IMG/VR virus record: IMGVR_UViG_3300030106_002678
Span: 1 to 31,790 of that record
Direction: 5' to 3' (one strand)
DNA: 31,790 bases
From: a virus
Under the pieces are notes generated by a model. That model saw only the letters and a list, made by a program, of their open reading frames with translations, had not been told where the DNA came from and did not search any database. Made by a program: the position numbers and the translations under genes. Positions 2,536 through 30,575 of this stretch are shown piece after piece. Each line of letters starts with the position of its first letter. Within the stretch, counting starts at the first letter, position 1.

Positions 2536-2973
2536 TTATTTTTTTATCTTTTCAAAACTCCTGCCTCCAAAATATGCAGATATGACGGTAATCAATGTGA
2601 GTTGTAATAAATCAACCCAAGAATCTTTGACCTCAAACGATACTACACCAGCATCAATAAAAATCATAAGCACAGTTGAAACAATCAAAAACAATAATAC
2701 CAGTGGTCTTACATTTCTTGACAACCAACTTCCTTTATTGTCTGAAATCCATCTAGCACTAATTTCTTGCATCTCTTTGGATTGTTGCTCAAACAACATT
2801 TGTTGTAGTTGAATTTTATCTTGTGTTGGTATCTTTGCTTTTCCTATTTCTGCAATTGCTTCTTTTGGACTGGTGACACCTTTTAGAACATTTGCTAATG
2901 TAGGATTCACAACTGCTGCTGCACCAAATAATAATTTTCCTACTGTACTTTGTGCGAAAGGTTTTTTAGACAT
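2536..2973 (-). CDS. Holin, 3TM GTA type
   Basis: A 145-aa protein with a hydrophobic N-terminal segment (about 12-22), a central amphipathic helical region, the motif WLSRNVRPLV (83-92) leading into a transmembrane helix (90-110), and a second one (119-136) followed by YFGGRSFEKIKK. This architecture matches the holin family first described in gene transfer agents (PF11351). A holin permeabilises the inner membrane and triggers lysis. It begins with a TAATG overlap immediately after the M15 endolysin, which confirms its place in the lysis cassette. Confidence 0.75.
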   Translation of the reverse strand: MSKKPFAQSTVGKLLFGAAAVVNPTLANVLKGVTSPKEAIAEIGKAKIPTQDKIQLQQMLFEQQSKEMQEISARWISDNKGSWLSRNVRPLVLLFLIVSTVLMIFIDAGVVSFEVKDSWVDLLQLTLITVISAYFGGRSFEKIKK

Positions 2974-3431
2974 TATGTGATGTTAATATATTTTACTTTA
3001 CCTTGGTCTCTTACTGCCTTTAATATGCGTTTTCTGTTCTTTTCTAAATCCACATAACTTATATGGACCCAATCAGGATTATCGCCACTACCAAACTCCC
3101 AAATTAAAGTATCAAACTCTAAATTATCTTTTATGTAATCAAACATCTCAGCGTTCGTTTTGTGTCCGTATATGTCATCAATATCTATTGCTTGACCTTT
3201 ACAATGTTGTGATGTCTTACTCCCACCGATTGCTTCGTTTAGTTCTGTGCTTCTATACATTGATGTAATCTTTATCGGACCACCTACCCACTCTCTCAAT
3301 GGCTCAAAGACATTTGCTGCTAATGTTTTCATATTGTTATAAGAATTGCCGTTTGGTGTATTGTCAATGCCTAATCTCAAAGCGGTTATGCTTTTTGTTG
3401 CCTCTTTGTCTGAAATATGTTTTGATATCAT
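2973..3431 (-). CDS. Endolysin, M15-type D,D-peptidase
   Basis: A 152-aa protein with the peptidase M15A signature: SQHCKGQAID at residues 74-83 gives zinc ligands H76 and D83, and WVHISY (121-126) gives H123; the WEFG motif at 111-114 carries the likely catalytic acid E112. Such enzymes cleave peptidoglycan cross-links between or next to D-alanines. It has no signal peptide, as expected for a holin-dependent endolysin. ATGA overlap joins it to the outer-membrane protein gene upstream and TAATG overlap to the holin gene downstream. Confidence 0.85.
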   Translation of the reverse strand: MISKHISDKEATKSITALRLGIDNTPNGNSYNNMKTLAANVFEPLREWVGGPIKITSMYRSTELNEAIGGSKTSQHCKGQAIDIDDIYGHKTNAEMFDYIKDNLEFDTLIWEFGSGDNPDWVHISYVDLEKNRKRILKAVRDQGKVKYINIT

Positions 3432-4603
3432 AATCTAAAGTTTATACCTACTTTGCTATTCAAAATTTCTGAATCCCAAAATTTTATATATTCTCCCTCA
3501 ATAAATAACCCAAGTCGTTTACCGATTTTAACACCCAAAATTAAACCTGCTTGATAGTCTTCCCACTGTTCTTCTTGTGCATCTTTTATTAATCCACCTT
3601 TGCCAAAATTGTTTCTGTGCAAGTATGAATAATCCTCATCGCCTTTTATGTAATGATGATAAGGCAGTATATAGTTTCCGTATGCGTGTAACCAAAACTT
3701 TGAACGATAATGGTAAAAGTCAAAACCTACTATCGGTGCAACCTCTGCAAATGGATCAATCAAATTCCATTGTTCACGATTGTATCTGTTCATCAATCCA
3801 CCAAAAACCCTATCCCTAAAATCTCTATCTCCATAAGCAACAATATCTCCATCCTCGTTTCTCCATATCCAATCATAAAAACTTTCTCCTGTTTGGATGT
3901 TAACATATTGTGTAAGTTCATCTGTATAAGAATAATAATAACCTAATTCGTACCATCTGTTTTTGGGAACTTCTTGGTTGTTTATTACTTGTGTTTCATT
4001 CAACCATATTTCTATAGGATTGTAGCCGTATGCTTTCTGATGGCTTCTCGCTATTGCACCTGCACTGATGCTGAACTTTTGTCCGATAGGTAATCTAAAT
4101 CTAACCTCTGCACTTTGATACTGAAAGTTTACGTTACCCTGTTTTCTTGATTCAAATTTTACAATATGATATTTGCCTGTGTGTCTTATAAAATATCTTG
4201 TGTTATCAAACTCTTCACTTCTTTCTCTTTCTCTTTCATAGTGAAATAAATACTCCAATCCTTTTACTGCTGCAGTTGGTGCTGACAATCCAATTAAGTT
4301 CTCTGACCCATCAATATAATTCTGTCTGACCTCATAATTAAATCTTGCAAGTTTTCTAATACCAATTCCAACGCGATAATCAAAAGGATGATATATTGTT
4401 TGGTCAATGACATCAGGTATTGCATAAAGGTCATCTGGGTTTGTTCTTATAAAATAATCAGGGTACTGTGTTTCGTATGCCTCACGCATATCTCCTGCTA
4501 CATAAACTGTTGCATACTTAAATATACCATCGTATGCTTTTTTAAAAAACTGTGCGTTTACATTCAGTGTAAATAATAATGCTAATAATAAATATTTTTT
4601 CAT
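3428..4603 (-). CDS. Secreted beta-barrel outer-membrane-like protein
   Basis: A 391-aa protein with a clear signal peptide (MKKYLLLALLFTLNVNAQ, cleavage before Q18 or F19 in Bacteroidota style). The mature part is rich in Tyr, Phe and Arg with alternating polar/nonpolar strands (for example VNFQYQSAEVRFRLPIGQ and YELGYYYSYTDE) and ends in a strand finishing GINFRL, the usual look of an outer-membrane beta-barrel. No catalytic motif is visible. It sits inside the lysis cassette, between a thioredoxin-like secreted protein and the endolysin. It could change the host surface (block superinfection), help breach the outer membrane at lysis, or be a virion protein; the sequence does not decide this. 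Confidence 0.6.
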   Translation of the reverse strand: MKKYLLLALLFTLNVNAQFFKKAYDGIFKYATVYVAGDMREAYETQYPDYFIRTNPDDLYAIPDVIDQTIYHPFDYRVGIGIRKLARFNYEVRQNYIDGSENLIGLSAPTAAVKGLEYLFHYERERERSEEFDNTRYFIRHTGKYHIVKFESRKQGNVNFQYQSAEVRFRLPIGQKFSISAGAIARSHQKAYGYNPIEIWLNETQVINNQEVPKNRWYELGYYYSYTDELTQYVNIQTGESFYDWIWRNEDGDIVAYGDRDFRDRVFGGLMNRYNREQWNLIDPFAEVAPIVGFDFYHYRSKFWLHAYGNYILPYHHYIKGDEDYSYLHRNNFGKGGLIKDAQEEQWEDYQAGLILGVKIGKRLGLFIEGEYIKFWDSEILNSKVGINFRL

Positions 4604-4605
4604 AA

Positions 4606-4956
4606 TTAAAATCTATCTTCTAAAAGTTTGTCAATTTGTTTTTGAAATTCTACCTCGTAATCTTCTGGCAATCTTAATGTGATTCCTGCCTCTACCCTAT
4701 AAATTTCTTTGCCATTATTGTATAAAATAATAGTCGGCAAAAACTCTATGGATTCATCTGTAAAATAATCCTCGTGTTTACTGTTTTCAAAGTCAAAGAT
4801 ATGTGTGTTGTGTTCTTTATATTCTTTTAGGCTAACATCCTCTACGAACGATGCTTTAAACAGAACAACACTAATATTATCTTTATAATATTGACTACTG
4901 ACAGTTGAAACAAATAGGACAGTTAATAGGGCACATATTTTAATCTTTAAGTTCAT
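4606..4956 (-). CDS. Secreted thioredoxin-like protein without CxxC
   Basis: A 116-aa protein with a signal peptide (residues 1-22, ending VSSQ). The mature part follows the thioredoxin fold order: strand VVLFKASF (31-37), strand THIFDFEN, then FLPTIILYNNGKEIYRVEAG (72-91) in which P74 is the cis-proline of thioredoxins. The active-site CxxC is absent and there is no Cys at all in the mature protein, so it cannot do disulfide exchange. I infer a binding or chaperone role in the periplasm, perhaps for the barrel protein encoded 2 nt downstream. Its start lies inside the end of the coiled-coil gene upstream (17-nt overlap). Confidence 0.55.
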   Translation of the reverse strand: MNLKIKICALLTVLFVSTVSSQYYKDNISVVLFKASFVEDVSLKEYKEHNTHIFDFENSKHEDYFTDESIEFLPTIILYNNGKEIYRVEAGITLRLPEDYEVEFQKQIDKLLEDRF

Positions 4957-5239
4957 ATACTCTTTCTTCTATTTTCTCAACAACCTCTTTGATTTCCTTT
5001 ACATCTTCTTGAATGTTCTCTACTTGTTGCTGAGTTAAATCTATTTGAGAACGTATGAGTTTGTCTTTAAATTCTGCTTCTTTTTCTGATACTATTGGTT
5101 TGGGTAATTCCTTTGCCTCTGCAATATCTGACTGCATCACAAAGTACATTGATGCAAGTGATATACAACCACCTACAATGATACCTATTGTTTTTAAATC
5201 TAACTTAACCTGTGTATTTTCATTTATTGTCTTACTCAT
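4940..5239 (-). CDS. Membrane-anchored coiled-coil protein (spanin-like)
   Basis: A 99-aa protein: short cytoplasmic N-terminus, one membrane helix (residues about 17-35, TIGIIVGGCISLASMYFVM), then a long charged helix with heptads (VENIQEDVKEIKEVVEKIEERV). An inner-membrane anchor with a periplasmic coiled coil, inside a lysis cassette, is the architecture of an inner-membrane spanin subunit. No lipoprotein partner is visible, so the outer-membrane function might be met by the beta-barrel protein. The coiled coil could equally be a phage structural or tail-tip accessory protein. Confidence 0.5.
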   Translation of the reverse strand: MSKTINENTQVKLDLKTIGIIVGGCISLASMYFVMQSDIAEAKELPKPIVSEKEAEFKDKLIRSQIDLTQQQVENIQEDVKEIKEVVEKIEERVYELKD

Positions 5240-5483
5240 CTTTCTCTACTTTTTGTATAGAGCCATCCGCTAAATTGATATTTACTTTGCCATATTTATT
5301 TTCTAGCCTCTGCATTTTCTTGCTAAAATCTTTTTTGCATTGGTCTATTTTTTTAATAGCATCTGCAATTTTGGCATCCGAAATAAGTTTGTTGTAGTGT
5401 GCTTTGCCCACCTCAACATAGTATCTTGTTTCATCATTTAACAATTCTTGTATGTACTCTAATTCTGATTTTTCTATTTTCAT
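5232..5483 (-). CDS. Coiled-coil protein of the lysis region, unknown
   Basis: An 83-aa helical protein with a single Cys (DQCKKDF) and a C-terminal stretch LENKYGKVNINLADGSIQKVE that I associate with small conserved proteins of marine phages. No signal or membrane segment. It overlaps the start of the spanin-like gene by 8 nt. It is the first gene after a possible internal promoter at 5498-5505, so it may open the lysis operon. Confidence 0.55.
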   Translation of the reverse strand: MKIEKSELEYIQELLNDETRYYVEVGKAHYNKLISDAKIADAIKKIDQCKKDFSKKMQRLENKYGKVNINLADGSIQKVEKDE

Positions 5484-19665: not shown

Positions 19666-20789
19666 TATCTTATTGTATTTATCTTATCAAAAGCATATTT
19701 GAACGTCATTGTATAGTTTGCAACTCTATCGTTTATAGATGTCTTAAATGTTACATTTTGGTCTTGTGGAATCACAGGCAAATATTGACTATTTTGAAAT
19801 ATCCAACATCTTTTGCTTGTAAGTATTTGTTCAATCACTTGATTGTAACTATCATCAACATATCCTGTGTTTAGTATGATTGTTTCTCTACTATTTATGT
19901 TTCTGTTTCTATACTGATGATTGTTAACAGAATATGTTGCACCAGTCGTTAATGTAGAGCTTTTGAATTCATCTTTTTGAACACTGACACTTTCTATAGA
20001 TTTTAAGAAAAAGTTTACCTTTTGTAAAGCGCCTGATTTGTTCACAAATACTATTGGTAAGTTTGTAAATTTTTCACAATCTTGTTCCTCTATTTCTATT
20101 GTTTCTGTTGAGCCTCCTGTAACTATATCTACACTTGTAAGTGTTGCAGTTGTACTGGTTGCGTATGCTATCGCATTATTTGAATTATCAACACCTGTTG
20201 CTACTGTCACACTTGACACGGTCGAACTACCATTTTTAAAGTTTACAGTAGTCGCTCCTGTCAATGTATCGCTTCCAGAATTTACACTTAAGTTTGCAAG
20301 AACAGGAATGTACAACACCTCTTGATTTTCTCTAAATATCTTTGTGTTGCTCATCAACTTTGTTACACTGCCTTTATGTCTTGTAAGTGTTTGTGTTGTA
20401 TTGCTATTGGACGTGCTTGTTATATCAAATCCCTCTTCAAAATATCCAACTCCATCAAAAGCCAAATAAATAGAACTTATTGCACTTAAACTTGTGCCTG
20501 ATGAATTTTTAGGTGTTGCCGTTGTTTGTACCCAGACATTTACACCATTACTACCAAACGTACCACTAAAACTATATGCTATGTAATCTTTTATCAGTTC
20601 TCCAATCTCAAATATAACATAGTTGTTATTTGCAACTTCGTTCTTGACAAGTTCATAGGTGCTTGATGGGCTTGCTTGAAACGCACCGCTATATATTGCG
20701 ATTGTTAAATTACAACTTGCCATATCATCAGTTGAGTTTGCTATTTTTAAATAGACAGGACTGTTTATATTTATTTTTTCTATTGCCAT
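19665..20789 (-). CDS. Distal tail (Dit-like) protein
   Basis: A 374-aa beta-rich protein. N-terminal INSPVYLKIANS and the C-terminal half with CEKFTNLPIVFVNKSGALQK, CWIFQNSQYLPVIPQDQNVTFKTSINDRVANYTMTFKYAFDK follow a pattern of flavobacterial tail proteins encoded beside the tail-tip protein. A Ser/Thr-rich middle (about 160-235) may be a surface-exposed insertion. Likely a tail-tip ring or adhesin platform. Start by TAATG overlap with the tail completion gene. Confidence 0.55.
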   Translation of the reverse strand: MAIEKININSPVYLKIANSTDDMASCNLTIAIYSGAFQASPSSTYELVKNEVANNNYVIFEIGELIKDYIAYSFSGTFGSNGVNVWVQTTATPKNSSGTSLSAISSIYLAFDGVGYFEEGFDITSTSNSNTTQTLTRHKGSVTKLMSNTKIFRENQEVLYIPVLANLSVNSGSDTLTGATTVNFKNGSSTVSSVTVATGVDNSNNAIAYATSTTATLTSVDIVTGGSTETIEIEEQDCEKFTNLPIVFVNKSGALQKVNFFLKSIESVSVQKDEFKSSTLTTGATYSVNNHQYRNRNINSRETIILNTGYVDDSYNQVIEQILTSKRCWIFQNSQYLPVIPQDQNVTFKTSINDRVANYTMTFKYAFDKINTIR

Positions 20790-21274
20790 TATAATTCTTT
20801 TTCAAAGTCGTTTACAAATGATGCTATCAATTCTGGAGGTAAGGTTTCAAATCTTTTCTCAAAAGGTTTTGTAAAAAACAAACTAGGTTTTATGCCCTGT
20901 TCAAATATTGATTTTGCAATTACATAATTCAATCCTTTTCTCTTTGCAAACTGACCGCCCTGTTGTCTTGGTGCTATACCTTTTCTTACAGTCCACTTAT
21001 CAAAAGCAGAACTAGGAGGTCTTTTGTTTGTGTATTTAAAAGGAGTGTCATATTTTTTCTTTGTACCACTAACTCCTTGGTCTTGATAACTTCCATATTC
21101 CTCCATTATGAACTCTAATATAAAACCTGAACTGTCATACACAATATCATAATCTAAGGATTCGTAAAGTTTTTTACTTACATTTTTATTGCCTCTTGTG
21201 AGATTACTTCTAGATTCCTTAATTACATATTTTGCAAAATCATTCAATACTTTTTTAGTGTCTTGTAATTCCAT
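20789..21274 (-). CDS. Tail completion / neck protein
   Basis: A 161-aa basic protein. The motif YQDQGVSGTKKKYDTPFKY followed by PPSSAFDKWTVRKGIAPR is common to Bacteroidota phage proteins in the gp10-like position, involved in joining head and tail. An in-frame ATG at 21325 would add 17 residues, but the ATG at 21274 forms a TAATG overlap with the preceding stop and gives the better start (MELQDTKKVL). Confidence 0.55.
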   Translation of the reverse strand: MELQDTKKVLNDFAKYVIKESRSNLTRGNKNVSKKLYESLDYDIVYDSSGFILEFIMEEYGSYQDQGVSGTKKKYDTPFKYTNKRPPSSAFDKWTVRKGIAPRQQGGQFAKRKGLNYVIAKSIFEQGIKPSLFFTKPFEKRFETLPPELIASFVNDFEKEL

Positions 21275-21744
21275 TAGCAAATACTTATATCGTTTTCTAT
21301 TAATATATCCATAGTACAAGCCCAACCACCTAACCTGTTTTCAAACCTTTCATAAAATGGCTCACATACAGGGTCGCCAGATAATTGATATTTAGATGTA
21401 TATAAAGAGCCTCTTCGTAGTAAATGGATAATCTTATTCAACACTGCAAGTTGCGTATTCAACACATCCTGTTCATTGTCGTTTCCTACAAAAATATCTG
21501 CTGTTTCATCTTTGTATTCATTGACAACATCCATAGCCATTATTGTAATATTAAATACAAGCGCTTGCTCTTGTGCTGTAACTGTATTTACGATAATGTG
21601 AGCAAGAGGAAATATGGTCTGTTTAGATAAATCTATTTCTGTAATATCCCCTGTTGTTACCGTGTTTACGTTCGGATCAGTTAGCAAATTTGTTTTGATT
21701 GTATCTGTCAGTTGGTAAAATCCTCTTATTCCCTGATTACTCAT
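21274..21744 (-). CDS. Tail terminator-like protein
   Basis: A 156-aa protein. The head GFYQLTDTIKTNLLTDPNVNTVTTGDITEIDLSKQ and the end FENRLGGWACTMDILIEN follow a conserved small protein between tail chaperone and tail completion genes of Bacteroidota siphoviruses. Size and position fit a tail terminator, the ring that caps the tail tube. Its ATG overlaps the stop of the -1-frame chaperone product (ATGA). Confidence 0.5.
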   Translation of the reverse strand: MSNQGIRGFYQLTDTIKTNLLTDPNVNTVTTGDITEIDLSKQTIFPLAHIIVNTVTAQEQALVFNITIMAMDVVNEYKDETADIFVGNDNEQDVLNTQLAVLNKIIHLLRRGSLYTSKYQLSGDPVCEPFYERFENRLGGWACTMDILIENDISIC

Positions 21745-24608: not shown

Positions 24609-25754
24609 TCACAGTGCTTTTTTTATGTTTTTTGCAACTGCCTCCACGACATCAACTGTGACTGCATTGCCACACATTTTATATCTTTGATTGTCTGATA
24701 TTGTTCCTAATTCTTTTCCTGTCTTTGTCCAATTGTCTGGAAACCCCTGTAATCTTTCACATTCTTTTGGTGTTAATCTTCTTATTATATTTTGTGTTTG
24801 TGCCCCATTTGGATTTGCCGACCTAATGGTAAAGGCATCTTGATTATCTTTACCAATCATTGTTCCGCTTTTATAAGCAAATGTTTTTTTAGACTGCCCT
24901 ATTTGGACGGGGTTTACTACCGCCTGCTCTCCCCCTGCATCTAGTGTTTGTGCTATACCTTTACCTACTCTACCTCTTCTTGTTTTGCTTGGTAGGTTTT
25001 GATAGTTTATCGTATCTCCAGCTCTTGCTATTTCGTACCCTTTATTGTTGTTTGTTTTTATTTTTAATATAGGTGGCATCTTACATAGTACTTTTGCACT
25101 ATTTTTCATAGCCATCAAACAGGGTGTATCGCCATCCTTTCTCGCTCTAAATCCTTCATCATTCCTGTAATCTCCTACAATTATTTCTTGTCCATCAATT
25201 TCGTTTTCAGCAACTTGTCTATTGTTTTCTGTGAAAGGAAATATTTGCTTTCCACTTCCTTTTCCAAGACATCCGACAAGATAGACTCTCTCTCTATTTT
25301 GGGGTAAAAACCACTTTGTATTAAGCAGTTGCCATTCAAGTCTATAACCCCCAATGTTTGCAAAGGCTTGGATAATTGCCCAAAAGTCTGCGCCATTGTT
25401 TGTGGAGAAAGTTCCTTTAACATTTTCCCAGATAAAAAAACTTGGTTTGCATTCCTCGATAAGCCTAATTGCTTCGGTAATAAGGGATGATTTAGCCCCG
25501 CCCATTCCTTTTCTTTTTCCAGCCAAACTAAAATCTTGGCAAGGACTTCCGAAAGTGATGATGTCGATTTTTGGTAACTGTCCTCCTCGAACATCAGTAA
25601 CTGATTTGACATACGTTATATTTTTAAAATTATTTTTATATACATCTATTGCATATTTATCTATCTCCGAGTAGTAAGTATGTTTAATATCAAAAACTCT
25701 TTTGAGCCCTAAACTAAAACCACCTATACCACTAAACAAATCAAGATGATTCAT
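24609..25754 (-). CDS. dcm: DNA cytosine-C5 methyltransferase
   Basis: A 381-aa enzyme with the canonical order: motif I DLFSGIGGFSLGL (5-17), motif IV GSPCQDFSLAGKR (69-81) with catalytic C72, motif VI ENV (110-112), motif VIII NRERVYLVG, a variable target-recognition region (about 185-320), motif IX RRLTPKECERLQGFPDNW and motif X GNAVTVDVV. It transfers methyl from S-adenosylmethionine to cytosine C5. No restriction enzyme is nearby, so it probably protects phage DNA from host restriction. It overlaps the DnaA-like gene by 14 nt. Confidence 0.92.
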   Translation of the reverse strand: MNHLDLFSGIGGFSLGLKRVFDIKHTYYSEIDKYAIDVYKNNFKNITYVKSVTDVRGGQLPKIDIITFGSPCQDFSLAGKRKGMGGAKSSLITEAIRLIEECKPSFFIWENVKGTFSTNNGADFWAIIQAFANIGGYRLEWQLLNTKWFLPQNRERVYLVGCLGKGSGKQIFPFTENNRQVAENEIDGQEIIVGDYRNDEGFRARKDGDTPCLMAMKNSAKVLCKMPPILKIKTNNNKGYEIARAGDTINYQNLPSKTRRGRVGKGIAQTLDAGGEQAVVNPVQIGQSKKTFAYKSGTMIGKDNQDAFTIRSANPNGAQTQNIIRRLTPKECERLQGFPDNWTKTGKELGTISDNQRYKMCGNAVTVDVVEAVAKNIKKAL

Positions 25755-26142
25755 TATTTTTTGTCATTTTATCTACTTGCTTTGCGATTATATGCACATC
25801 TTTATTTTTTAGAAAGTTTACTTTGTGTTTTATAAACTCTTTCTTTGCATCTATATCCCTAAGTTGTCTTGTAATCTTCAGTAACCAACGTTGTATTTTG
25901 TTATTGTATTTGTTGTTTTTTTCAAAACTGTTTATTGAATGCAATACTGTTGTATGATTTCCTGACCTGCCTTTTTCTTTGTATAAGTTGCCTATTTCTT
26001 GCAGTGTCATCTTTTGGTATTTGTATAATATGAATGATAGGAGTGACCGTGCCTCTACTACCTCTTTCTTTCTTGTGTTCTCAAACACATCTACCTTTGC
26101 TATTTCGTTTATTTCTTTTGCTATCTTATCTGCTTTATTCAT
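25741..26142 (-). CDS. DnaA domain IV-like DNA-binding protein
   Basis: A 133-aa protein whose residues about 26-75 match the DnaA C-terminal DNA-binding domain: EVVEARSLLSFILY, MTLQEIGNLY (a helix-turn-helix), and SGNHTTVLHSI (60-70), the DnaA signature. The AAA+ ATPase part of DnaA is absent. Known DnaA domain IV binds TTATNCACA-type boxes; here it may mark the phage origin or regulate genes. The C-terminal 50 residues are basic helices. It lies between an unknown gene and the C5 methyltransferase. Confidence 0.7.
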   Translation of the reverse strand: MNKADKIAKEINEIAKVDVFENTRKKEVVEARSLLSFILYKYQKMTLQEIGNLYKEKGRSGNHTTVLHSINSFEKNNKYNNKIQRWLLKITRQLRDIDAKKEFIKHKVNFLKNKDVHIIAKQVDKMTKNNESS

Positions 26143-26147
26143 ATTAT

Positions 26148-26471
26148 TTATGTATTATTTGATTTTTTTATAGTAAAACTATCGCACACTTCCGCTGCAT
26201 CCCAATGCCTTACGATTTCAATAGGAACATCTAAAACCGTATCAGTTAGTTTTTCGTGCCAGTATTCGTATTCTACTCCGTCGCTGTCTAGATATTCTAA
26301 ATGAGAATCAACATATTTGGATTCTTCAATATCAAATGATTCTTCAACTAAAAATCCATCAGACAATTCTTGAGATTCTGAGTCATTTTTAAATATAACA
26401 TTTCTTAAATGCTTAGCCAATTCTGTTCTGTTGATAAAATATTGTTTGTTTCTAAATTTTATTATTTTCAT
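26148..26471 (-). CDS. Acidic protein, unknown
   Basis: A 107-aa acidic protein (MKIIKFRNKQYFINRTELAKHLRNV... ending SFTIKKSNNT). N-terminal 30 residues look like a small basic domain, the middle is Glu/Asp/Ser-rich, and two Trp occur near the end. It starts inside the methyltransferase stop (ATGA). No function recognised. Confidence 0.55.
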   Translation of the reverse strand: MKIIKFRNKQYFINRTELAKHLRNVIFKNDSESQELSDGFLVEESFDIEESKYVDSHLEYLDSDGVEYEYWHEKLTDTVLDVPIEIVRHWDAAEVCDSFTIKKSNNT

Positions 26472-27187
26472 ATAAATAACCTTTTTTGTTGTTTGTGTGT
26501 GTTAATTCGTTTCTGTGTATTATCAAAATATTCTTTGTCTATTTCATATCCTGTTAATTGATATTTCAAATTATAACAAGCAATGGCGATTGATCCGGAG
26601 CCTAAATGTGTATCAAGTATTTTGTAACCCTCTTTTGCATAATTCATAAGCAACCACTCATATAATTTAACAGGTTTTTGTGTTGGGTGTATTCTTTTTT
26701 CTAAACCTTTACCATAATCATTTATCATTCTGGTATTCATTACTCCTGCCTGAACATTACCACTCCACTGAAAATCAAACATTGTAATTCTATTCTGGCA
26801 ATTTGTAGCAGCAATATCAGCGTGTGAATACGTACTTTTTAAAAAAGGTGTTACTAACTTATTATGTATTATTCTACCCTGCCCAAATAATTTTTGGGCT
26901 TCTCCATAATAATTACATCCCCAAATAATATGCTTTTTAGAAACTCTTAAAACTTCCTTAAAATAATCTATCGTAGGTGGGACTTTATTCCAATCTTTTT
27001 GTTTATGTCCTTTATAAACATAATCTTTTTTGGCTACTGTTTTTAACTTAGCATTAGTTTTAATTCTCTTTCCTTTACTAAAACTTAATCCTATACCATA
27101 AGGGGGGTCAACTATCGCTAAATCATACTCATCATCTGACATATTTTTCATAGCCTCCATACAATCTTGATTATAGATGTTTATCAT
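26468..27187 (-). CDS. DNA N6-adenine/N4-cytosine methyltransferase (beta-class)
   Basis: A 239-aa enzyme: motif IV DLAIVDPPYGIGL with DPPY at 27-30, target region in the middle, then IHPTQKPVKLYEWLL and motif I-like ILDTHLGSGSIAIA near the C-terminus. That order (IV before I) is the beta class. It methylates adenine N6 or cytosine N4 in DNA. The C-terminal 70 residues are nearly the same as those of the 214-aa enzyme at 29931-30575, while the target region differs. No partner nuclease is seen. Confidence 0.85.
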   Translation of the reverse strand: MINIYNQDCMEAMKNMSDDEYDLAIVDPPYGIGLSFSKGKRIKTNAKLKTVAKKDYVYKGHKQKDWNKVPPTIDYFKEVLRVSKKHIIWGCNYYGEAQKLFGQGRIIHNKLVTPFLKSTYSHADIAATNCQNRITMFDFQWSGNVQAGVMNTRMINDYGKGLEKRIHPTQKPVKLYEWLLMNYAKEGYKILDTHLGSGSIAIACYNLKYQLTGYEIDKEYFDNTQKRINTHKQQKRLFI

Positions 27188-29458: not shown

Positions 29459-29934
29459 ATAAGTTCTTTGAGTTTCTTTTTTACGTTTCTAAAAGTATTA
29501 TAAAGTGAGTAATAACTTATGCGCGTTTTTCTGGACAGTTCGCTTATGCTTTGTCCATCGCTTACCATATCGTAAACTTGTCTGTTATACCAATGTATCT
29601 CTTTCAATGCTTTTTGTATCTTACCATAAACCTCATCATAGTTTACTGTTGCCTCATCTTCAATTTGTAAGTTGTCTAATGTGGTAAAAGTTACTTTCAT
29701 TTTTTTTCGTAACAGGTCGATGTAAAGACCTCTTAATATTCTGAAACAGTAATAGTAATTAATATCGCAGTCTCCATAACTAAAGTCGATGCCTTTTTGT
29801 GTATTTTTAATGAGCAATAGGTATAGTTCTTGCACTATATCCTCAACCTCTGTTTCTCTCAGGCCTCCAAAACTTCTTGTAATTTCCATCCACTTTTCGT
29901 GCCTATCGTATGCTATCTCTACTTGTGTTTTCAA
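29455..29934 (-). CDS. Sigma-70-like factor
   Basis: A 159-aa protein with a region-2-like N-terminal half (VEDIVQELYLLLI, YYYCFRILRGLYIDLLRKK) and a region-4-like HTH at the end (SISELSRKTRISYYSLYNTFRNVKKKL). This is the layout of small ECF-size sigma factors. It could direct host RNA polymerase to phage promoters. It starts at a TTG that overlaps the methyltransferase stop as TTGA; the next in-frame ATG would lose 15 residues. It lies in the early operon, the right place for a late-gene regulator. A terminase-like DNA-binding protein is an alternative. Confidence 0.6.
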   Translation of the reverse strand: MKTQVEIAYDRHEKWMEITRSFGGLRETEVEDIVQELYLLLIKNTQKGIDFSYGDCDINYYYCFRILRGLYIDLLRKKMKVTFTTLDNLQIEDEATVNYDEVYGKIQKALKEIHWYNRQVYDMVSDGQSISELSRKTRISYYSLYNTFRNVKKKLKELI

Positions 29935-30575
29935 AATAATCTTTTTTGTGATTTGTGTTCTTCTAATCTTTTGATAGCGTCATTGTAATATTCTTTATCT
30001 ATCTCACAAGCAGTTAAATCATAACCAAGATTATGACAAGCGATTGCAATGCTCCCACTTCCTAAATGTGTATCTAATATTTTATCTCCTTCCTTTGCAT
30101 ATTTCATAAGCAGCCACTCATATAATTTTGTATGTTTTTGAGTAGGATGTATTTTTTTTTGATGTTTATAGTCAACATTAATATCTTGTTTGAAACCAAT
30201 TAGATTTCCAATTTGAGTGAATCTTAAAATTGTTGGTTTAAATTTAAATGATGTCCAAGCTAATTCAAAATCGTGCATATTTTCTCTTGGCACACCACCT
30301 TTTGTTAATTTTTTTTCCCTAATGTCGTCATTAAATACTTTATCCCAACATATCCAAGATTGTGTATGGGGTAATACAAAAAAATTACCTCCCCATATTA
30401 TTTGATTTTTACTTACTCTAAATAATTCTGTAAAATATTCATCACTTGGTTTCATATCAATAGAGTCCCATTTTGCTATATCTATACAGTAAGGAGGGTC
30501 AACAATAGCCAAGTCAAAATAATTATCATTATATCTTGCCATCAAGTCCAAGTTATCTTCACAAGTTATTTTCAA
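29931..30575 (-). CDS. DNA N6-adenine/N4-cytosine methyltransferase (second copy)
   Basis: A 214-aa enzyme: DLAIVDPPYCIDI with DPPY at 26-29, a target region (about 40-130), IHPTQKHTKLYEWLL and ILDTHLGSGSIAIAC. Same class as the 239-aa enzyme, with an almost identical C-terminal third. Starts at TTG overlapping the helicase stop (TTTTGA). With the other two methyltransferases it gives this small genome three DNA-modifying enzymes. Confidence 0.83.
   Translation of the reverse strand: MKITCEDNLDLMARYNDNYFDLAIVDPPYCIDIAKWDSIDMKPSDEYFTELFRVSKNQIIWGGNFFVLPHTQSWICWDKVFNDDIREKKLTKGGVPRENMHDFELAWTSFKFKPTILRFTQIGNLIGFKQDINVDYKHQKKIHPTQKHTKLYEWLLMKYAKEGDKILDTHLGSGSIAIACHNLGYDLTACEIDKEYYNDAIKRLEEHKSQKRLF

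Follow-up and report, generated by a model that had tools for sequence, protein, structure and literature searches.

How does a phage of Gram-negative bacteria that carries no recognizable spanin get through the outer membrane of its host? According to Kongari et al. (2018; PMC6139136), about 13% of the surveyed Gram-negative phages lack a recognizable spanin, flavobacterial phages included (among them the flavobacterial Croceibacter phages P2559S and P2559Y), and an outer-membrane protein could serve as o-spanin in such phages; no example was given. The IMG/VR virus record analyzed here (the window, i.e. the whole stretch of 31,790 bases) raises this question, as an original prediction had placed an exported beta-barrel and an exported thioredoxin-like protein inside its lysis cassette, and had proposed for them either a new way to open the outer membrane or superinfection exclusion. 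All recognizable genes of the window are on the minus strand. The proteins recognized are terminase, portal, tape measure, DnaB-like helicase, and C5 and N6/N4 methylases; the window proteins that were scanned included no integrase. This 32 kb phage encodes one C5 and two N6/N4 DNA methyltransferases (three in all; positions 24609-25754, 26468-27187 and 29931-30575), along with a DnaA_C-domain protein (25741-26142).

Gene coordinates together with Pfam and PHROG matches (Table 1) confirm that the genes of the 391-aa protein (BARREL) and the 116-aa protein (TRX) are adjacent and lie upstream of endolysin and holin. The signal peptides expected on both proteins are present as well, read from the sequence by a cleavage rule of thumb and not by SignalP: that of BARREL spans approximately residues 1-17 (MKKYLLLALLFTLNVNA^Q), ending in ...NVNA^Q, and that of TRX ends in ...VSS^Q. 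The CC gene overlaps the TRX start by 17 nt, and the endolysin start overlaps the BARREL stop (ATGA). With the genes for CC, TRX, BARREL, endolysin and holin either overlapping or 2 nt apart, the arrangement is consistent with coupled translation.

Table 1. The CC-TRX-BARREL genes of the window and their neighbors (gene, product, position, strand, evidence).
83-aa gene	protein of unknown function, upstream flank of the module	5232..5483	(-)	
CC	99 aa, one-TM coiled-coil protein	4940..5239	(-)	hydropathy, heptad/charge statistics, neighbor of TRX
TRX	116 aa, predicted exported thioredoxin-fold protein without CxxC	4606..4956	(-)	AF2, Foldseek, Pfam
BARREL	391 aa, predicted exported outer-membrane beta-barrel	3428..4603	(-)	AF2, Foldseek/VIA-align, homologs
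endolysin	Peptidase_M15_3 (E 1.5e-16), PHROG endolysin (1e-32)	2973..3431	(-)	
holin	phrog_3427 (PHROG holin, 1.5e-16)	2536..2973	(-)	

BARREL has a conserved N-terminal helix followed by approximately 12-14 strands. The AlphaFold2 (AF2) model, computed from an alignment of 22 relatives, displays about 14 antiparallel strands by DSSP (pLDDT 66.6, pTM 0.62). Structural matches in the PDB (Foldseek, VIA-align) are outer-membrane barrels throughout (Z 10-14), the best of them being 12-stranded: EstA, NalP, NanC, KdgM, OMPLA and LpxR. The likeness to the NalP/EstA translocators, NanC, OMPLA and LpxR is one of barrel fold; sequence identity is about 10%, and no catalytic or passenger domain is recognized in BARREL. 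The Sec signal and the predicted antiparallel barrel, with no sign of a non-barrel fold, make the assignment as outer-membrane beta-barrel well supported; the strand number (12 or 14) and the details of the model are less secure than its barrel nature. No significant match was found in PHROGs, Pfam or NCBIfam. A viral structure library contains a protein of 342 aa (A0A516LKJ4) with 24% identity to BARREL (E 1e-22), which is likely a homolog. Relatives of BARREL occur on no fewer than 245 IMG/VR contigs, some of which exceed 100 kb, and dN/dS values of 0.06-0.09 indicate strong purifying selection. Given these numbers and the conserved gene order, the observation is not due to chance. In one locus (L079:5965-7149) the barrel is encoded as two ORFs (177 and 122 aa), by a frameshift or a sequencing error.

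The prediction of a thioredoxin-like protein without CxxC motif was correct as well. The AF2 model of TRX is a short thioredoxin (pLDDT 85.1), its best Foldseek matches are thioredoxins, and the profile PF00085 is matched by 18 of 31 family members at E values up to 0.01 (best 5e-8). By these models TRX has a thioredoxin fold, and it shares the Pro motif (LPT / APT) with thioredoxins, from which it differs in being exported and in having lost CxxC in all 257 family members. It is most likely descended from thioredoxin, with its redox chemistry lost; a redox or disulfide-isomerase role is ruled out by the missing motif.

CC has one N-terminal transmembrane (TM) segment, followed by an acidic C-terminal coiled coil of about 60 residues. 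Among 207 homologs the TM segment starts at a median residue of 17, the C-terminal 60 residues have a net charge of -5.4, and heptad periodicity exceeds that of shuffled sequences in 97%. This suggests that the coiled coil is probably periplasmic, in an i-spanin-like topology. Its helix would reach at most about 9 nm, and hence CC is probably unable to cross the periplasm alone. The family is present on at least 504 contigs. A second CC variant with the conserved sequence WPRGEMGALPDDAKQDLRIxYLQ occurs near the module in some phages (L026:1761-2063, L036:6170-6472, L203:7506-7835).

Do these three genes belong together? The genes around barrel relatives were clustered into families (more than 200 IMG/VR loci overall). 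The families found in almost all barrel loci are CC, TRX and BARREL, and endolysin and holin come after. Among barrel-seeded loci whose flanks each exceed 3 kb, CC and TRX are each present in 58/58; in the pooled set both are found beside the barrel in 96/96 loci, corresponding to 63/63 clusters at 90% identity and 23/23 at 70%. Because seeding with the barrel might bias this co-occurrence, a control run was seeded with CC. Among these loci with intact flanks, TRX accompanies CC in 46/46 and the barrel in 40/46. CC lies directly upstream of TRX in 254 of 255 cases, some of these loci having been found through CC. The gene orders seen are CC-TRX-BARREL, as in the window, BARREL-CC-TRX, and CC-TRX-BARREL-CC-TRX. 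The original prediction considered the one-TM coiled-coil protein an i-spanin without a partner; CC is instead a member of this module and neighbors TRX obligately. Tree correlations (barrel-TRX r = 0.54/0.56, barrel-CC 0.24/0.42, barrel-endolysin 0.77/0.10) are confounded by co-inheritance and were therefore not used as proof of partnership.

A scan with CC from barrel-less loci yielded 46 loci that have intact flanks and lack a barrel, all of them CC-TRX and most in the order CC-TRX-endolysin-holin. These phages have the same backbone, and the pair has the same place beside the endolysin. No barrel was found anywhere in eight barrel-less records, which may be fragments, although three positive controls were detected. 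The barrel is hence not required by all phages of this kind, and CC-TRX appears as the basic pair, since it occurs without the barrel and no barrel lacking it was seen. TRX subtypes track the arrangement (on the tree, 8 Fitch changes versus a mean of 88 with shuffled labels): one subtype accompanies the barrel, and barrel-less CC-TRX has a subtype of its own. The proposal that TRX is the dedicated periplasmic helper of the barrel thus holds in part, in that one subtype goes with the barrel. TRX is primarily the partner of CC, however, and an exclusive helper role is ruled out by its occurrence without barrel.

The three genes can leave the lysis region together. Three related phages (G001, G002, G004) have the 83-aa gene, endolysin and holin in one place, the homolog of the 83-aa gene directly abutting the endolysin, and CC-TRX-BARREL elsewhere, in the structural block. 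In G001 the module sits exactly between the homologs of the window genes at 21274-21744 and 20789-21325, which are neighbors in the window; the flanks in G002 and G004 read the same. In this one lineage CC-TRX-BARREL has left the lysis region as one block and entered the structural genes, and it is precisely these three genes that were kept together.

A peptidoglycan hydrolase lies within 4 kb in 80 of 96 barrel loci (M15_3 in 70, Amidase_2 in 6, diverged M15 in 2, and PG_binding plus Amidase_2 in 2). As these enzymes are in part of unrelated types, the module keeps its place close to the endolysin position also where an unrelated enzyme has taken over. Of the 16 loci in which none was found within this distance, 6 belong to the relocated lineage, three are related loci, and several others are large genomes.

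The lack of a lipoprotein partner, as originally stated, was borne out. On the coding strand of four barrel-bearing records of about 32 kb (the window, G001, G002 and G004) no conserved lipobox ORF was found, and the scan recovered the lipoproteins of L151, L031, L205 and L206 as positive controls. The window yielded only a lipobox-like Cys inside the TM segment of CC, which is not conserved across the family. These four phages hence look spanin-less by the published criteria. A simple signal-peptide and lipobox scan of eleven records of 29-35 kb returned TRX, and the barrel where present, as the sole exported proteins in most; the additional candidates are a possible lipoprotein and one doubtful protein in G013, and one doubtful protein each in G004 and G018. 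A lipoprotein is also present in 10 of 58 barrel loci.

Based on this dataset, we hypothesize that CC, TRX and BARREL form a late, three-part trans-envelope device that performs the outer-membrane step of lysis, a reading to which we assign a probability of just under one half. The data show the three-gene unit with its conservation, folds, export signals, gene neighbors and movement as a block; from them we infer late expression, a physical complex, its topology and its lysis function. The N-terminal TM segment would hold CC in the inner membrane, from which its acidic coiled coil would extend into the periplasm. TRX would act as a redox-dead docking domain that binds the end of CC and lengthens its reach, and BARREL would be the outer anchor gripped by CC-TRX. 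After removal of the peptidoglycan by holin and endolysin, the linked complexes might gather and either draw the membranes together and fuse them or tear the outer membrane open. Such an action has been proposed for spanins, but here an outer-membrane protein would replace the o-spanin lipoprotein. Phages with CC-TRX only need a separate explanation: either their TRX subtype would have to grip an outer-membrane component of the host, or the pair would do a different job. Besides these phages, the points that speak against the device are the barrel loci with no hydrolase within 4 kb, those that also have a lipoprotein, and the scarcity of Cys for spanin-type disulfides.

How does this compare with known systems? 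Two-component spanins (Rz/Rz1 type) likewise have an N-terminal TM protein with an acidic periplasmic coiled coil beside endolysin and holin, have overlapping partner genes, and would connect the inner and the outer membrane. The orientation of CC, as read from sequence (N-in TM segment, periplasmic domain), matches that of the inner-membrane spanin component, and the window module, unlike that of the relocated lineage, lies in a lysis cassette. In contrast to these spanins, the module has no lipoprotein o-spanin, its outer partner is a beta-barrel, and it has an extra soluble thioredoxin-fold component; a sequence relation was not detected. Intermolecular disulfides have been described as general in two-component spanins (PMC6139136), whereas the module is almost free of Cys, which is absent from 203 of 207 CC homologs, from the window BARREL and from mature TRX. 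Unimolecular spanins (T1 gp11 type) resemble the module in the proposed task only, and no window protein was found to combine a lipobox with a C-terminal TM segment. With no lipoprotein, the module is neither a two-component nor a unimolecular spanin, though its mode of action may be similar. In the spanin-less phages P2559S and P2559Y, the endolysins have no comparable large gene annotated next to them.

Of the two roles offered by the original prediction, the new route through the outer membrane is the better supported, with lysis as its putative function; exclusion is less favored. BARREL might modify or occupy the cell surface and thereby block adsorption of sister phages or loss of progeny on debris, with CC-TRX aiding assembly or providing a link to the inner membrane. 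Phage outer-membrane proteins such as the Lc porin of PA-2, encoded near a lambdoid lysis region, and Llp of T5 act in lysogenic conversion or exclusion, BFVD contains other phage outer-membrane barrels, and the barrel is missing in some close relatives. However, Lc and Llp are by description single genes without obligate partners of the CC and TRX type, and the module is tied to endolysins and structural genes rather than to early or lysogeny genes; the scanned window proteins include no integrase. The long loops of BARREL show roughly the same conservation as several of its strands and are not hypervariable, which together with the purifying selection fits exclusion less well. Exclusion also accounts neither for the obligate presence of CC and TRX nor for CC-TRX standing alone beside the endolysin, and appears unlikely.

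Slightly less probable still is a regulator of lysis timing, with CC as a holin, or partner of a holin, that has one TM segment and a periplasmic domain, TRX as a periplasmic antiholin-like regulator (cf. T and RI of T4), and the barrel as sensor of the envelope state or accessory. The TM region of CC weakly matches a PHROG named holin (phrog_1296, E 9e-4), a recognized holin is present in only 35 of 96 loci whereas CC-TRX is nearly universal, and the pair often immediately precedes the endolysin. Yet the window and many relatives have a separate holin gene, RI is not known to share the thioredoxin fold of TRX, and the barrel is left without a role.

A role in envelope assembly or outer-membrane lipid modification, with CC-TRX escorting envelope proteins and the barrel acting as a channel or an OMPLA- or LpxR-like enzyme, is less likely again. 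BARREL resembles these 12-stranded enzymes at the level of fold (Z about 11), and its strands carry a conserved set of charged residues (D75, R83, R87, E91, E117, K149, E151, R168, R186, D295, H306 and E369, computed on 29 representatives less than 70% identical). However, non-enzymatic barrels match equally well or better, and no catalytic motif is recognizable among the conserved polar residues. Moreover, a lipid-cleaving barrel would itself act in lysis and thus overlap with the trans-envelope device. A virion or tail component, or a virion-associated device, is very improbable, because the position in a structural block in one lineage is set against the Sec-type signals of both BARREL and TRX, the TM segment of CC, the movement of the block as a unit, and structural neighbors that adjoin in the window without the module.

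The trans-envelope device would thus offer a concrete and widespread candidate for the outer-membrane step of spanin-less phages, opens this step to testing with few genes, and provides a functional hypothesis for a barrel family without significant PHROGs or Pfam match. If true, it would mean outer-membrane disruption without lipoproteins. More tentatively, and with some doubt on our side, it may represent a third class of phage outer-membrane disruption in a large group of uncultured marine phages: a lipoprotein-free, three-component machine in which CC grips a barrel via a redox-dead TRX adaptor, and whose CC-TRX-only form hijacks a host outer-membrane protein.

CC-TRX, in many cases with barrel, is carried by hundreds of marine phages that apparently infect Bacteroidota, and the CC-TRX-BARREL gene set is previously undescribed as far as the open-access literature searched goes, in which no barrel-thioredoxin lysis module was found. 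A tblastn search of 50,697 GenBank phages gave no match to the window BARREL, CC or TRX, to a distantly related barrel, or to CC/TRX from barrel-less loci, and the only matches of a third TRX subtype were thioredoxins in unrelated phages; an origin as cultured-phage gene is ruled out within these records. Host origin was rejected also: ten genome matches are in MAG contigs, most of which carry module neighbors and are hence phage-like. Four barrel-bearing phage contigs (L119, L120, L122, L124) are binned into Woesearchaeota and Nitrosopelagicus MAGs, and are most likely mis-binned bacteriophage DNA.

Further exported proteins were observed near the module. In a barrel-less phage that shares the backbone of the window, an 87-aa lipoprotein (L151:6590-6853, MRYLILFLLFTSC...) follows TRX and precedes the endolysin, thereby taking exactly the place of the barrel; this single case is suggestive. 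A lipoprotein family of approximately 125-160 aa (L031:7834-8271 and 22 clustered loci), with the conserved sequence ITHVLAVTxxGDTLKLPI, an Asn/Pro-rich tail and no NCBIfam match, occurs near the endolysins of many BARREL-CC-TRX phages, and possibly acts as o-spanin or has another function. A family of small exported proteins (IPEDKKLHFAAGN...) adjoins the module in larger phages (L029:6842-7252, L031:6842-7252, L186:4422-4751).
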